Of a stretch of 64,000 bases of DNA, positions 30,399 through 61,022 are shown piece after piece (position 1 is the stretch's first letter; each line of letters begins with the position of its first letter). The stretch lies in assembly GCF_003254115.1 (NCBI RefSeq), contig NZ_QKZV01000002.1:62001-126000 (forward strand). Reading direction: 5' to 3'. The notes beneath the pieces are model-generated. The model was not told the origin of the DNA. It did not search any database and saw nothing but the letters and a program-made list of their open reading frames with translations. Source of the DNA: Hydrotalea sandarakina. GTDB lineage: Bacteria; Bacteroidota; Bacteroidia; Chitinophagales; Chitinophagaceae. Position numbers and translations under genes: made by a program.

Positions 30399-33300
30399 TT
30401 AACTAAATAGGTATTCCAGATCTTCTCTGCTTAATGATTTTACGAAGCTTTCATCATCGGTAATCAAATCACGGGCTAAGGCTCTTTTCCTTTCCTGCAA
30501 GGTTAATATTTTATCTTCAACCGTATCGGTACAAATCATTCTGTAAGCAAAAATGTTTTTGGTTTGGCCAATGCGGTGGGTTCTGTCAATAGCTTGTTGT
30601 TCAACGGCCGGATTCCACCAGGGATCAACAATATATACATAATCGGCAGCGGTTAAATTTAAACCCACACCACCTGCTTTTAATGATATTAAGAACACCC
30701 TGCAATTTTCATCATTTTGAAAACGCTCAATAGCTTTTTGTCTTCCTTCTGCTGAAGTGCTTCCATCAAAATATTCATAATCTATTCCCAGTTCATTCAG
30801 CTTTTCTTTTATCAATGAAAGCATACCTATAAACTGTGAAAATACCAAAGCTTTATGATTGCTGATGTTTTCTGAAATTTCACGACCCAATTCTTCCAAC
30901 TTTACAGAAACATTGGGGAATTTTTCATCATCTTTTATAATGGCCGGACTATCACAAATTTGGCGCAGCTTCATTAAACCTTGCAAAATGGTGAGTTGCG
31001 ATTTTTGTACGCCTTGTGCATCAACAGTGCCTAATATTTTTTCACGGTAATCATTGCGGTAAGCATCATATATTTTGCGTTGTTCACTTCCCATTTCACA
31101 GAATAAAACAATTTCTTGTTTTTCGGGCAAGTCTTCTGCTACTTGCTCCTTTGTTCTTCTTAGTATAAATGGATATAATAATTTTCGTAAATGCTCCTTT
31201 TGTTCTTTTTCATTGAATTTATCAATGGGAATCGCAAATTCCTGCTTAAAAAATTCTATACTGCCCAACATGCCAGGGTTCAAAAAGTTCATTTGCGCAA
31301 AGATGTCAAAAGTGTTGTTTTGCAAAGGGGTACCACTTAAACAGAGCTTGTTTTTAGCCTTCAGTAAACCGGCAGCTTTTGTTATTTTACTCGCTGGGTT
31401 TTTAATGGCCTGGCTTTCATCTAATATTACATAATCAAAATTAATGTCAACAAATTGCTTTATGTCGCTACGTAAAGTGCCATACGTTGTTATAATAATA
31501 TCATATTTGTTATCCGCTAACAAATCTTTATCTCTGGCACCACCATGATGAATATAATAAGTAAGTTCCGGTGTGAATTTTTTTATTTCATTTTGCCAGT
31601 TATACATTAGTGTAGTAGGACAAATAACCAAAGCCTTTAAATGACCTTGTTGTTGTTTTAAATGGTAAATAAACGTAAGTGCTTGAATGGTTTTACCTAA
31701 ACCCATATCATCTGCTAAAATTCCACCCCATTCAACTTCGTGTAAATAATTTAGCCATTGAAAACCGCTTTCTTGATAGGGGCGCAGTATTTTTTGTAAA
31801 GGAGCCGGTGCTGCAATTGGCTGTATGCTAAAGTTTTCTTTTAATTTTTCAAATTTTTCTTCCAATTGTATGGTTAATTCGGCTTCATTACGTTGTTCAT
31901 ACAATTCTTCAATTACACTAAAATGATACTTGCTTAGTTTTATATTCGTGGTTTTTCCTTCGCCAATTCTGAACAATAAAGCATATTTCTTAAGCCATTC
32001 TTCAGGTAATATACCCAATGTGCCATCGCTTAATTGTACAAATTGTTGCTTATTGGCTAATGCTTTTTTTACATCGGCAACCGTAATTTTTTGTTCTCCA
32101 AACTGTATTTCAACTTTTGCATCAAACCAGTCGGTGTGTGAACTTATGTAAATTTTGGTAGAAGGTTTCGCCGTATTAAATCTAAATTTTTTAAGTGTAT
32201 CAAAACCAAAAATTGGGGTTGAACGATCTTTTAGTGAATCGATAAATAAAAAGAACCAATTGTTTTTCAATACATCGGCACCTTTTAACGCCAATGTATT
32301 GCCGTTTTCTGATTGTAAAAAGTGGGAATATAGTTTTTGGATAGATTCAATGAATTGATGCTCAGCTTCTTTGTTTCTATGAATTACTACAATACTGTCG
32401 CCTTTTGGAATAATGATTTTATCATTATCGCCTTGTTTAACTTCATAACCCTGATATGTGAAAATGGGTTGAAATAATAAATAATCACCTTTTTCTTTTA
32501 ATAAAATGGCACAGTCGGGTTTACTATCTCTTATTTCTTTCTTTTGAATATTGCCAAATTGAATATTGTATTGTTTGGATAATGGCAATATGAACTGGGT
32601 TAACTGTTGCTGCCAGTTATCAGGTGATATTGTAATTTTTCCTTCGGGTAAAAATTTTTCAATTAATAAAATGTCCTCAGGTTTATCCCAATTATAAAAC
32701 ACGCCATTGTGCGCAAATAAAAAAGGTGAATTAATTTCATTTTCTTGAATAGCTACACGACCAATTGGCAGTTTAGCATAGCACTCAACTATGTATTCAT
32801 TGGGAGTTTGTTGAATAAAAAATTCAGGAATTAAGGTTTGTTGTGCCAATTGTGTTGGCTCAATATTCGCCGTGGTAAATGTTTTTCCTGAAGGAAGATA
32901 AAAGCAGAAATTACTTTCTGCTAATTCAACAAATAACTTTTTGTATTTGGGGTGAAGATATTCGTTGATTAGTTGTTTGGTTTCTTCCGGTAAATCGTCG
33001 CCATGTTGTTGAATAATATTATCCCATATACCACTGAATGGTGAATTGCGGGTTAAATATTTATTTACTTCAGCAGGTAATACTTTCCGTAGTTGTTGAA
33101 GTAAAATTTTGTCATCTTCTGAAAACGGTTCTGTATTGACGAACTTATTTAAGTCAAGCTTTTCTACCTTATTAATAAACTTAGTAAAGTGCTCATCAAT
33201 TTCACCTTGTATGGCTTCTATTTGTAAGTAGGGATATTGTGGTTGGTTAAAAATAAGTACCGTTCCCAACTTCAGTTGTGCTTTTTCAATTGTGGTTGTA

Positions 33301-34190
33301 ATGGGTGGTATATCGGATTCAGCCACTACAACTTTTTCTGAATTACGTTCGGTGCTATAGTTTAATGCCTCTTGTTTTTCAGTTGAAATGTTTGTATTAA
33401 TGCGTTTTATGGAAGGGTCTAATACTTTTAAAAACGGTTTACCATTGGTGTAGGTAAATTCAAATTTATCGGTTAAATCATCTGATAGCGAGTAACCGTA
33501 GATTGACAATAATTTATTTTTCTCCTTATCCCAATTTCGAATAGTATCAAAATAATTAGGCCCATAATTGTTTAGTAATTGTAAAAATACAATGGTTTTA
33601 TGCACGCATAGGGGGTGATGCATGTCGCTATTACAATTACAACTTGTATCAAAATTTCTTTCTTCATTTTTTTGCAGAATCACATTCATTTTTTCACCTT
33701 CCATTATCACCTCGGCCAACACTTTTTCATCTTTGGCTTCAATAATATTGGCAGTGTTGTAGCGTGTAAATCCTTCTGCTAAAGAAAAGTTTTCATTACC
33801 TGAAAGCATTTTAATTAGTTTTATATCTAATGCTTTCATTTTTACAACCGTATGCTTTTGGTTATAATGCACTTCTTTTTCGCCCAAAATATTTTTGTCA
33901 ATCATTTCCTGTAACTGAAATAAAGCAGCAGCTTTATGCCTGCAAATTTCAGTTAGATTGTAAGGGCATGTGCATCGGAGTGAAAGTGTTTGCGGATCTT
34001 TATAATGTTGTATGTAAACTTTATAAAATGTACCGTACGAGTCATCTTTTACTCTAAATACAACGCTATTCATTAATGCATCGTGCTCAATTAATTCCAA
34101 GTTACCCGTAGTATGAATTTTTTTCCCACGACGAATAACTTCTTCTGCGCCATTATTGTAAATATGTTTTATTAAATACGGTAATGCCAT
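30399..34190 (-). CDS. SNF2/Rad54-type helicase with two SWIM-like zinc motifs
   Basis: A 1263-residue Snf2-family DNA translocase. The C-terminal half holds the helicase core: Walker A region LADDMGLGKTIQALTF, motif II LDESQAIKN, motif III LSGTPLQNN, and motifs V-VI (LKAGGVGLNLTAADYV, AIDRTHRIGQTK). The N-terminal half contains a SWIM zinc motif Cys73-x-Cys75-x7-Cys83-x-His85 and a second similar set Cys184-x-Cys186-x8-Cys195-x-His197. Bacterial SWIM-SNF2 proteins are known but poorly characterised; roles in DNA repair or chromatin-like remodelling are assumed. It stands alone on the minus strand. The ATG at 34190 gives MALPYLIKHIYNNG. Family firm, cellular role unknown. Confidence 0.93.
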   Translation of the reverse strand: MALPYLIKHIYNNGAEEVIRRGKKIHTTGNLELIEHDALMNSVVFRVKDDSYGTFYKVYIQHYKDPQTLSLRCTCPYNLTEICRHKAAALFQLQEMIDKNILGEKEVHYNQKHTVVKMKALDIKLIKMLSGNENFSLAEGFTRYNTANIIEAKDEKVLAEVIMEGEKMNVILQKNEERNFDTSCNCNSDMHHPLCVHKTIVFLQLLNNYGPNYFDTIRNWDKEKNKLLSIYGYSLSDDLTDKFEFTYTNGKPFLKVLDPSIKRINTNISTEKQEALNYSTERNSEKVVVAESDIPPITTTIEKAQLKLGTVLIFNQPQYPYLQIEAIQGEIDEHFTKFINKVEKLDLNKFVNTEPFSEDDKILLQQLRKVLPAEVNKYLTRNSPFSGIWDNIIQQHGDDLPEETKQLINEYLHPKYKKLFVELAESNFCFYLPSGKTFTTANIEPTQLAQQTLIPEFFIQQTPNEYIVECYAKLPIGRVAIQENEINSPFLFAHNGVFYNWDKPEDILLIEKFLPEGKITISPDNWQQQLTQFILPLSKQYNIQFGNIQKKEIRDSKPDCAILLKEKGDYLLFQPIFTYQGYEVKQGDNDKIIIPKGDSIVVIHRNKEAEHQFIESIQKLYSHFLQSENGNTLALKGADVLKNNWFFLFIDSLKDRSTPIFGFDTLKKFRFNTAKPSTKIYISSHTDWFDAKVEIQFGEQKITVADVKKALANKQQFVQLSDGTLGILPEEWLKKYALLFRIGEGKTTNIKLSKYHFSVIEELYEQRNEAELTIQLEEKFEKLKENFSIQPIAAPAPLQKILRPYQESGFQWLNYLHEVEWGGILADDMGLGKTIQALTFIYHLKQQQGHLKALVICPTTLMYNWQNEIKKFTPELTYYIHHGGARDKDLLADNKYDIIITTYGTLRSDIKQFVDINFDYVILDESQAIKNPASKITKAAGLLKAKNKLCLSGTPLQNNTFDIFAQMNFLNPGMLGSIEFFKQEFAIPIDKFNEKEQKEHLRKLLYPFILRRTKEQVAEDLPEKQEIVLFCEMGSEQRKIYDAYRNDYREKILGTVDAQGVQKSQLTILQGLMKLRQICDSPAIIKDDEKFPNVSVKLEELGREISENISNHKALVFSQFIGMLSLIKEKLNELGIDYEYFDGSTSAEGRQKAIERFQNDENCRVFLISLKAGGVGLNLTAADYVYIVDPWWNPAVEQQAIDRTHRIGQTKNIFAYRMICTDTVEDKILTLQERKRALARDLITDDESFVKSLSREDLEYLFS

Positions 34191-58001: not shown

Positions 58002-58592
58002 TTATTTTTGGGTTAAGCGCATATTTTCAGCGGTAGCCGCCAATGCTTCATAAAAATCAGGTCCGTATTTGCGAATTAAAGCATCTTTTAGGAAAATATA
58101 TACTGGCATTTTTAATTTTTTACCCAGGCTGCAAGCCGGTTTACATAAACTTTCGCGAGGTTCATAATTTACGTATTCTACATCCGTATGCTTTTTACTT
58201 TCTGAAATACGAATGGGGTATAAGTGGCAGCTAATGGGTTTTTTCCATTGGGTTAAACCTTGCCGGTGTGCTTGTTCAAAAGCACAAAGAATTACTCCCT
58301 TTTCATCACGCTTGCCATAAATGCAAATACCACTGCCAATGGTAGGGGTAACCCATCCAAATTCTTTATCATAAACCGAGTCGCCTTGTTTTTGCAGTTC
58401 GGCTAATCCTTCGGCACTCATAAAAGGTTTAGCTGCTTCCAAGCTATCTTTCAATAGTTGTAGTTCATTAACTTCCAAGGGGGCACCGGCATCGCCATCT
58501 TCACAGCAAGCACCTTTACATTTGTGCAAATCGCATACAAATTGTTCCTCCACAACAGAATCACTGATTAAAACATTGTCAATGGCTATCAT
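58002..58592 (-). CDS. DUF3109 family cysteine-rich protein
   Basis: A 196-residue protein of the DUF3109 family, a Bacteroidota-typical group. Cys-rich motifs are CDLHKCKGACCEDGDAGAPL near the N-terminus and later SHLYPIRISESKKHTDVEY-like CHLYPIRISESKKH, and ESLCKPACSLGKKLKMPVY, suggesting a bound zinc or iron-sulfur site related to the CxxxxCxxCC (YkgJ) family. No signal peptide. It follows the LutB gene on the same strand, 45 bases upstream in transcription order. Function unknown; metal binding inferred from cysteines. Confidence 0.85.
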   Translation of the reverse strand: MIAIDNVLISDSVVEEQFVCDLHKCKGACCEDGDAGAPLEVNELQLLKDSLEAAKPFMSAEGLAELQKQGDSVYDKEFGWVTPTIGSGICIYGKRDEKGVILCAFEQAHRQGLTQWKKPISCHLYPIRISESKKHTDVEYVNYEPRESLCKPACSLGKKLKMPVYIFLKDALIRKYGPDFYEALAATAENMRLTQK

Positions 58593-58835: not shown

Positions 58836-58861
58836 TCAACAGCGTTGCGCAACGCTGTTGA
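58836..58861. repeat. 26-bp perfect palindrome
   Basis: The left arm TCAACAGCGTTGC (58836-58848) is followed at once by its exact complement (58849-58861). G+C content is well above the flanks. No T-run follows. It could be a REP-type element, a dispersed repeat, or the end of a lost mobile element. Confidence 0.8.
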
Positions 58862-59228: not shown

Positions 59229-61022
59229 ATGGCGAAAAATTTTGACGACTTACACGAGATTAACATCTCTAAAGAGTACACAAAAAGCTACGATGTAAGA
59301 TATGTTGCTGAAATCCGGCACATTGGGTTAGATACATATCGCATTCTAAAAGACAAGGACAGTTGGATTTTAAAAAAGAAAGTTGAAGCTCAATTTACTA
59401 AGTGGGACGAGCAATGGTCAAAAAGACTGGATAAACAAGAGGCTCTAGCGGCCAAAGAAGCGAATCAAAAAATTGCCGAAGAATTGACAAATGATGCTCA
59501 TGAGAAATTAGAAAAAATAGATAACATTTTAAAACATACACTTGGCATTGACGACACCGTAGATTGGGATTCTTTAAAAGACAAAAAGAAATTTAAAATT
59601 CCCAATCCCAAAAATCAACTTGATAAGGAAATTAAGAAAATTCCCTTACCACAAAAACCGCCTCATAAAAGTATTCCGAATAAACCAGATGAAAAGCATT
59701 TTCAACCACAACTCTCTTTTATTGACAAATTAATTAAATCAAGAAGGGAAAAGAAACTTTATGAGGCTAGTATGATGTATAAAAACGCAATTAGCGAATG
59801 GGAACAACTTGTTAATCAAACAGAAGAATTTAACAAAAAAATTGATGACGAATACAATGCTATTCTTTTTGAAATAGAAAAACAAAAGAATGAAATTGCT
59901 CAAAAATATGATCAATTAGAAAAAGAGTGGCAAAGGCAAAAAGAAGAATACTATAAAAATCAAGAAATACACAATCAAAAAGTTGAAAACTTAAAAGAAC
60001 TTTATTTTAAATGTGATACTAATGCGGTTCTTGAATATTGTGAATTGGTCTTAAATAATTCCGAATATCCAGATTCGTTTCCTAAGGATTTTGAGCTAGA
60101 ATACAATGGAGAAAATCGAATGCTCATTGTTGAATATACTTTGCCGGCTCCAGAACATTTTCCGAGACTATTAGAAGTGAAATATTTAGCAGCAAAAAAC
60201 GAATTGAAAGAATCATACATTTCAGATACTCAATTTTCGAAGATGTATGACACCGCGATTTATAATATCTGTCTCAGGACACTTCATGAATTGTTTGAAG
60301 CCGACAAGGCTAATGCAATTGATATTTTGGTGTTCAACGGATGGGTGGAAACAATTAATAAAGCAACAGGAAAGAAAACTAATAATTGTATCATATCTAT
60401 TCAAACAAGGAAAGAAGAGTTCATGGAAATTGAACTTGGAAATGTTGATCCGAAATCTTGCTTTAAAAACTTAAAAGGTGTTGGTAGTAGTAAATTAAGT
60501 GGAATAACAGCTATACAACCATTGATGCAAATAAATAAAGCGGATAAAAGATTTGTTACGTCATATGAAGTTTCTAATAAATTAGAAGAAGGCTATAATC
60601 TTGCTATGATGGATTGGGAAGACTTTGAGCATCTACTGAGAGAACTTTTTGAAAAAGAATTTAGTAGCAATGGCGGTGAAGTTAAGGTAACACAGGCAAG
60701 TCGTGATGGTGGCGTAGATGCGGTTGCGTTTGACCCTGATCCAATTCGTGGGGGTAAAATTGTTATTCAGGCCAAACGATATACTAATACCGTTGGTGTT
60801 GCTGCGGTCAGAGATTTATATGGTACTGTAATGAATGAAGGTGCAACAAAGGGCATACTTGTAACAACTGCAGATTATGGACCTGATGCATATGAGTTTG
60901 CAAAGAATAAACCATTGACACTACTAAATGGAAATAATTTGCTTTTCCTCTTAGAAAAACATGGACAAAAAGCCAGAATCGATTTAGCTGAAGCTAAGCG
61001 CTTGCAATCTGGTCAATTATAA
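59229..61022 (+). CDS. Mrr-type restriction endonuclease with coiled-coil N-terminus
   Basis: A 597-residue protein. The first 280 residues are charged, helical and coiled-coil (DKQEALAAKEANQKIAEELT, EFNKKIDDEYNAILFEIEKQ, YDQLEKEWQRQKEEYYKNQE). A mixed region follows (about 290-455). The C-terminal domain (about 475-590) is the Mrr catalytic fold: WEDFEHLLRELFEKEF, then Asp497 in RDGGVDAVAFDPD and Gln514-x-Lys516 in IVIQAKRYTN, a PD-(D/E)XK variant with QxK as in Mrr enzymes. The end is LTLLNGNNLLFLLEKHG. Codon use is A-rich compared with neighbours and it stands alone in a gene-poor stretch, so it may be transferred. Likely type IV or other DNA-defence nuclease; trigger unknown. Confidence 0.85.
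   Translation: MAKNFDDLHEINISKEYTKSYDVRYVAEIRHIGLDTYRILKDKDSWILKKKVEAQFTKWDEQWSKRLDKQEALAAKEANQKIAEELTNDAHEKLEKIDNILKHTLGIDDTVDWDSLKDKKKFKIPNPKNQLDKEIKKIPLPQKPPHKSIPNKPDEKHFQPQLSFIDKLIKSRREKKLYEASMMYKNAISEWEQLVNQTEEFNKKIDDEYNAILFEIEKQKNEIAQKYDQLEKEWQRQKEEYYKNQEIHNQKVENLKELYFKCDTNAVLEYCELVLNNSEYPDSFPKDFELEYNGENRMLIVEYTLPAPEHFPRLLEVKYLAAKNELKESYISDTQFSKMYDTAIYNICLRTLHELFEADKANAIDILVFNGWVETINKATGKKTNNCIISIQTRKEEFMEIELGNVDPKSCFKNLKGVGSSKLSGITAIQPLMQINKADKRFVTSYEVSNKLEEGYNLAMMDWEDFEHLLRELFEKEFSSNGGEVKVTQASRDGGVDAVAFDPDPIRGGKIVIQAKRYTNTVGVAAVRDLYGTVMNEGATKGILVTTADYGPDAYEFAKNKPLTLLNGNNLLFLLEKHGQKARIDLAEAKRLQSGQL

Follow-up and report, generated by a model that had tools for sequence, protein, structure and literature searches.

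What does a solitary nuclease gene with a long, predominantly helical front part do for the bacterium that carries it? The question is raised by one open reading frame in the 64-kb stretch of DNA analysed here (the window), whose product could protect against phages, cut modified DNA, serve a prophage or belong to the basic equipment of the cell. The reading that we favour, with a probability of roughly 60%, is that of a stand-alone, horizontally moving anti-phage nuclease.

59229..61022, + strand: open reading frame for a coiled-coil/MD/Mrr nuclease, 597 aa, homologues known

The frame begins with ATG and is single copy in its own genome, and its product is presumably about twice as long as EcoKMrr. 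A chance reading frame is excluded by a whole-length homologue of 81% identity and by orthologues from other phyla. A whole-protein AlphaFold model was built from 24 aligned homologue sequences taken from the window, bacterial genomes and viral contigs, and reached a mean pLDDT of 84.5. In this model, strands (residues 9-42) are followed by a helix (45-98), a proline-rich linker, a second helix (170-260), a compact alpha/beta domain that we call MD, lying between the coiled coil and the nuclease, and finally the nuclease itself.

59253..59354, + strand: N-terminal three-stranded unit, residues 9-42, then a long helix (AlphaFold model)
59361..59522, + strand: first long helix, residues 45-98 (AlphaFold model)
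59736..60008, + strand: second long helix, coiled-coil candidate, residues 170-260 (AlphaFold model)
60015..60518, + strand: MD, residues about 263-430, with a helix, four strands, a long helix and two strands (model of this part by itself)
60603..60944, + strand: Mrr catalytic domain, residues 459-572 (Pfam PF04471, E 1.1e-31)
60717..60776, + strand: active site with D497 (60717-60719), Q514 (60768-60770) and K516 (60774-60776), invariant in homologues

The Mrr assignment made in a preliminary description of this DNA, including the catalytic residues D497 and Q514-x-K516, held throughout: Mrr_cat scores 109.8 bits, where the cut-off is 21, and the D-QxK site is unchanged in 24/24 aligned homologues. 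The nuclease site is thus intact, and DNA cutting itself is predicted from it. Across the 24-sequence alignment no other region comes close to the nuclease in conservation, the mean share of the commonest residue being 0.83 there, 0.52-0.61 in MD and 0.38-0.43 in three N-terminal stretches; parts of the active-site region (residues 490-498 and 505-508) are poorly modelled by AlphaFold. The same description had called the large N-terminal part a coiled coil, which stands as far as long helices are predicted, but residues 9-42 form strands and residues from about 263 to 430 an alpha/beta domain; the label itself rests on the predicted helices, as heptad periodicity was unclear in a crude Fourier test. 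Judged from strand order alone, the three-stranded unit resembles the arm-type DNA-binding domains of integrases, and a PDB sequence search with it gave zero matches below E 0.2. The peak 19-residue hydropathy of the protein is 0.70, a value below that of a membrane anchor.

With a nuclease of this type, the protein could be a modification-dependent (type IV) enzyme like E. coli Mrr, in which the N-terminus would read modified bases and the Mrr domain would cut nearby, a reading that we consider rather unlikely. In its favour, the gene has no partner methylase beside it, and the PADLOC model mREase_IV (PDLC03663), whose 'type IV' label is a database assignment, matches MD and the nuclease together (residues 244-583) over profile positions 195-531 of 544 with E 1.9e-54. 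The search of defence databases that the preliminary description had proposed therefore finds the architecture already on file as a type IV candidate; since the PADLOC model covers both MD and nuclease, the architecture is not new to these databases. Further, with the whole model as query, Foldseek ranks the modification-dependent enzymes AspBHI and MspJI first (E 3.5e-7 to 1.6e-5); the TM-scores are low, and we take the match to stem from the nuclease part. An Mrr-like PD-QxK catalytic domain is reported for MspJI (PMC12707154). MspJI carries an SRA-like reader, and a Pfam scan found no such domain in the window protein. EcoKMrr likewise shares the Mrr_cat domain with its PD-QxK site; the same source gives it a winged-helix N-terminus and reports that its activity switches with oligomeric state, from tetramer to dimer (PMC12707154). 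The window protein has strands, a coiled coil and MD in place of the winged helix. Neither Mrr_N nor SRA was found by Pfam even when E values up to 1 were admitted, and MD had no base-reader match in the structure comparison.

Mrr-type nuclease domains joined to other sensors are known, for instance to STAND NTPases (PMC9122126) and to a beta-propeller (PMC9519451). The present architecture is not described in the accessible text of the CoCoNuT paper (PMC11090510), of a study about NTP-dependent conflict systems (PMC7159879) or of a review on anti-phage nucleases (PMC12904381), and the open-licence literature yielded neither an experiment on this nuclease family nor a description of it or of MD. 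What is new here is the MD module, which is also found without the nuclease, and the repressor-linked position described below.

Modelled on its own, MD reached a pLDDT of 87.3. It had zero Pfam or NCBIfam family matches, and PHROG 38135 (function unknown) covers residues 206-417 of the window protein. Against the PDB, Foldseek returned nothing below E 0.016 for MD; one viral structure prediction matched at E 3.5e-5 and gives no function. The best VIA-align match of MD, to CamS-type lipoproteins, had Z 7.6 and 4.0 A over 101 residues, a level that unrelated models also reach according to the tool's own note, and it likewise gives no function. To follow the domain through other proteins, we used an MD profile built solely from nuclease-bearing proteins, and the E-values given here refer to a four-protein search. 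MD without a nuclease occurs in a Kocuria protein (E 3.6e-35), in a Klebsiella protein of a ter cluster (E 1.6e-16) and in two Bacteroidota proteins (E 1.7e-15 at L056 and E 1.3e-12 at L057). The Klebsiella protein, encoded at L022:7704-8825 in a plasmid tellurium ter/TerY cluster, has a DUF4236-like start. On the Kocuria plasmid (L024:5869-8489) the MD gene is followed by a DUF4041 plus GIY-YIG-type gene, the two sharing one base; as a recurrent pair this combination was rejected, MD being missing from 6/6 other DUF4041 plasmid loci (L073-L078), and the Kocuria pair is thus a single sighting. The Kocuria protein had zero matches in phage records, and two nuclease-free MD proteins used singly as queries in the viral scan found no relative.

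One viral contig bears on what such a module might do. At L039:3803-9098 a tape-measure gene (PHROG E 9e-66) precedes the Mrr homologue by 61 bases, and the homologue has a predicted N-terminal membrane helix (hydropathy 2.84). SNIPE is reported to be a membrane-bound single-protein nuclease with DUF4041 and GIY-YIG, a conserved nuclease and a variable N-terminus, and to bind tape-measure proteins when at the membrane (PMC13190303). The family studied here resembles SNIPE in being a single-protein nuclease with a conserved nuclease and a variable N-terminus, and the additional likeness of the L039 form, with its membrane helix and tape-measure neighbour, rests on that one contig. The window protein, in contrast, has no DUF4041, GIY-YIG or membrane helix, and its nuclease belongs to a different family (Mrr_cat). 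The L039 tape-measure protein, used as a scan query, returned only contigs already found, and the tape-measure neighbour is one case. It is conceivable, if unlikely, that MD is a portable phage- or stress-sensing module with interchangeable partners, and that the membrane-anchored, tape-measure-linked L039 form acts in a SNIPE-like way at DNA entry. The partners in this improbable scheme would be a fused Mrr domain, a separate DUF4041-GIY-YIG protein in Kocuria, and none in Klebsiella and the two Bacteroidota genomes.

The favoured reading, a mobile defence nuclease, draws in part on where the gene is found. A full-length copy occurs in 0/58 other related genomes, comprising 3 of the same genus and 55 further relatives, while weak Mrr-only matches occur in 4/58. 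MD is present in 12/395 of the Bacteroidota genomes drawn, the window's own counted, and two of these 12 matches (genomes G092 and G441) are proteins without the nuclease. Relatives are found in Terrimonas, Dyadobacter and Lutibacter, in a Holophagales genome and in a Peptococcaceae genome, the last being incomplete at a contig end, and on plasmids of Pseudochrobactrum, Agrobacterium, Methylobacterium and Xanthomonas. In a 35-sequence tree the Bacteroidota copies are split over several clades, and well-supported branches force at least two changes; the window protein falls in a supported clade together with Chitinophagaceae or Chitinophagales copies and Dyadobacter. The gene is thus mobile and patchily distributed across bacteria.

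The surroundings of the gene vary as well. None of the 26 proteins flanking it was present at the 13 homologue loci compared, which include five short stretches of 3.6 kb, and when ten homologue loci were compared with one another, the nuclease gene alone was common to them, with the exception of one weak pair. The gene-poor flanks remarked on earlier were confirmed: a DUF3109 gene lies 636 bases off on one side, with an unsupported 107-aa frame between, and on the other side 354 bases separate the gene from a 111-aa lipoprotein-like frame. Two features of the left flank are the following.

58002..58592, - strand: conserved DUF3109 gene, left border of the variable region
58836..58861, no strand: 26-base perfect palindrome, a dispersed REP-like repeat judged to lie outside the system

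The DUF3109 gene is present in 36/39 relatives, own genome included. A lipoprotein gene that we take to be gldD is its close neighbour in 10 of 18 family genomes, 1,899 bases away or less, and is not found within about 7 kb in the other 8; the distance in the window's genome is 15,253 bases. In one sister species (G002), the left side is syntenic with the window as far as DUF3109 and no further, and beside DUF3109 stand Cas2, Cas1, a small frame, Cas9 (1,421 aa, with RuvC and HNH) and a repeat array. This type II CRISPR-Cas system occupies L019:7430-17393, its array has a spacing of about 77 bases, and the 197-aa frame between Cas1 and Cas9 looks by its sequence like a REP-associated transposase, without a Pfam match. 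The lipoprotein gene of G002 sits on a different contig, so that the interval is not closed there; the G003 contig stops 405 bases past DUF3109, and no DUF3109 match was found in G001. A hotspot beside DUF3109 has, with one sister species as its basis, thin evidence.

Other signs of transfer named in the preliminary description fared unevenly. The palindrome is there, but the genome holds 4 exact copies of it, and two of these have several hundred bases of flank in common; as a transfer scar it was rejected. The GC content of the gene is 0.33 compared with 0.37 in the remaining window, and across 24 loci the nuclease gene is lower in GC than its flanks in 23, with no difference in the last. 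In codon usage, however, the window gene is outside the 8 most deviant of the 41 window genes, so that foreign codon usage was not seen, and neither codon usage nor the palindrome supports recent transfer. The absence of a methylase or helicase was borne out among the immediate neighbours by a Pfam scan, but an SNF2-like helicase, a 1,263-aa frame at 30399-34190, lies about 25 kb away. When PADLOC was run on the 53 other window genes, the matches listed were single genes only (DpdE-, ZorD- or DrmD-type), and a defence island in the 64-kb window was rejected on these grounds; the DpdE, ZorD and DrmD matches are probably all to one gene, the frame at 30399-34190, which is likely a general SNF2 helicase.

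Some homologues have company of a different sort. At the Bacteroidota locus L059 (6032-12067) a NACHT gene is immediately upstream of the Mrr homologue, and a 300-aa frame of no assigned family and a reverse transcriptase follow, the latter two genes downstream and possibly an adjacent retron. On Agrobacterium and Xanthomonas plasmids the Mrr gene lies 65 to 75 bases behind the gene of a large AAA or DEAD-box protein (L080:1183-6452 and L081:1368-6467), an order that suggests a helicase-coupled variant. A PADLOC scan of 103/131 neighbouring frames, the dropped 28 being mainly upstream genes already scanned, short frames and frames of L037, gave no clear enrichment of defence genes, as the matches were led by HTH or repressor-type models.

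Scanning IMG/VR with family profiles gave 20 distinct contigs bearing the gene, and in 12 of the 20 a CI-like repressor or an ImmA-like metalloprotease is encoded directly upstream on the same strand. The upstream neighbour was scored by PHROGs in 17/20 contigs and in the remaining 3/20 by similarity to scanned repressors or by the HELGH motif. By PHROGs, it is a repressor, regulator or ImmA-like metalloprotease in 10/17, on the same strand and at distances from overlapping to 346 bases; the other seven are one opposite-strand anti-repressor, one tape-measure protein and five without a PHROG match. By similarity or motif, a repressor-like gene lies directly upstream in L149, an ImmA-like gene in L170 and neither in L154. 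Related contigs are counted separately here, so that independent events number fewer than 12: L033, L034, L035 and L170 group together as a single clade of the tree, and L036 and L037 seem to be near-duplicates. The viral contig L027 (4937-7690) carries two Mrr-type genes in tandem. Among 50,697 phage records, one had an Mrr-only match, and the window protein (P0001) used alone as a viral-scan query found no relative.

The linkage to repressors in viral contigs also suits a nuclease of a prophage lysogeny module that maintains or controls the prophage, for example through a link to SOS and repressor cleavage, and was later captured by chromosomes. This we regard as doubtful. It would account for the 12/20 viral contigs with repressor or ImmA-like genes in front, for L170, where the Mrr gene lies between the ImmA-like gene and a frame that reads as integrase-like, and for L036, where it lies between a regulator and a metalloprotease; lysogeny cargo, moreover, need not be defence. 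However, neither a repressor nor a prophage was found beside the window copy, the bacterial loci have no neighbours in common, and plasmid copies stand elsewhere, for example behind large helicases. The place directly behind the lambda repressor gene, that of rexAB, is known for phage exclusion, and we take the position behind a repressor to be a site of exclusion genes in general; the likeness to rexAB is that of an accessory gene right behind the repressor, in position only, the proteins being unrelated.

A housekeeping enzyme of DNA repair or degradation, which chromosomal location and ordinary codon usage would allow, is very improbable, being contradicted by the lack of a full-length protein in all 58 relatives and of the window's neighbours at all 13 homologue loci, so that conservation at one locus among relatives, named in advance as the observation that would speak against defence, did not appear.

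We return to the mobile anti-phage nuclease. The family occurs in prophage and defence-site contexts, and phage defence is likely, judged from context: the homologues share no locus, the gene is absent in relatives, its viral copies are linked to repressors, and a CRISPR-Cas9 system occupies the corresponding position in the sister species. These same observations support the preliminary description of a mobile, probably defensive nuclease. Of the targets of sensing suggested there, DNA ends, modified DNA and phage replication, none is singled out by the findings. As the gene is mobile, patchy and often beside the repressor gene of a dormant virus, its most likely role is to guard the carrier against other viruses. 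In such a system the parts in front of the nuclease, from the strands through the coiled coil to MD, may hold it inactive within an assembly, sensing of an infecting phage would release or position it, and the C-terminal PD-(D/E)XK domain (Mrr, D-QxK) would then cut the invading phage DNA. The oligomer switch in this scheme we infer weakly, from the comparable proposal for E. coli Mrr.

The family is also found well beyond this genome: among the best 19 plasmid matches, 15 are annotated only as 'restriction endonuclease' and 2 more also as 'hypothetical protein'. A widespread single-gene family labelled merely 'restriction endonuclease' would thereby gain a defined unknown domain and a likely role, that of excluding competing phages, often from within prophages. 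If MD senses infection, it would further offer a handle for finding additional systems in which this sensor is present and the nuclease is not.
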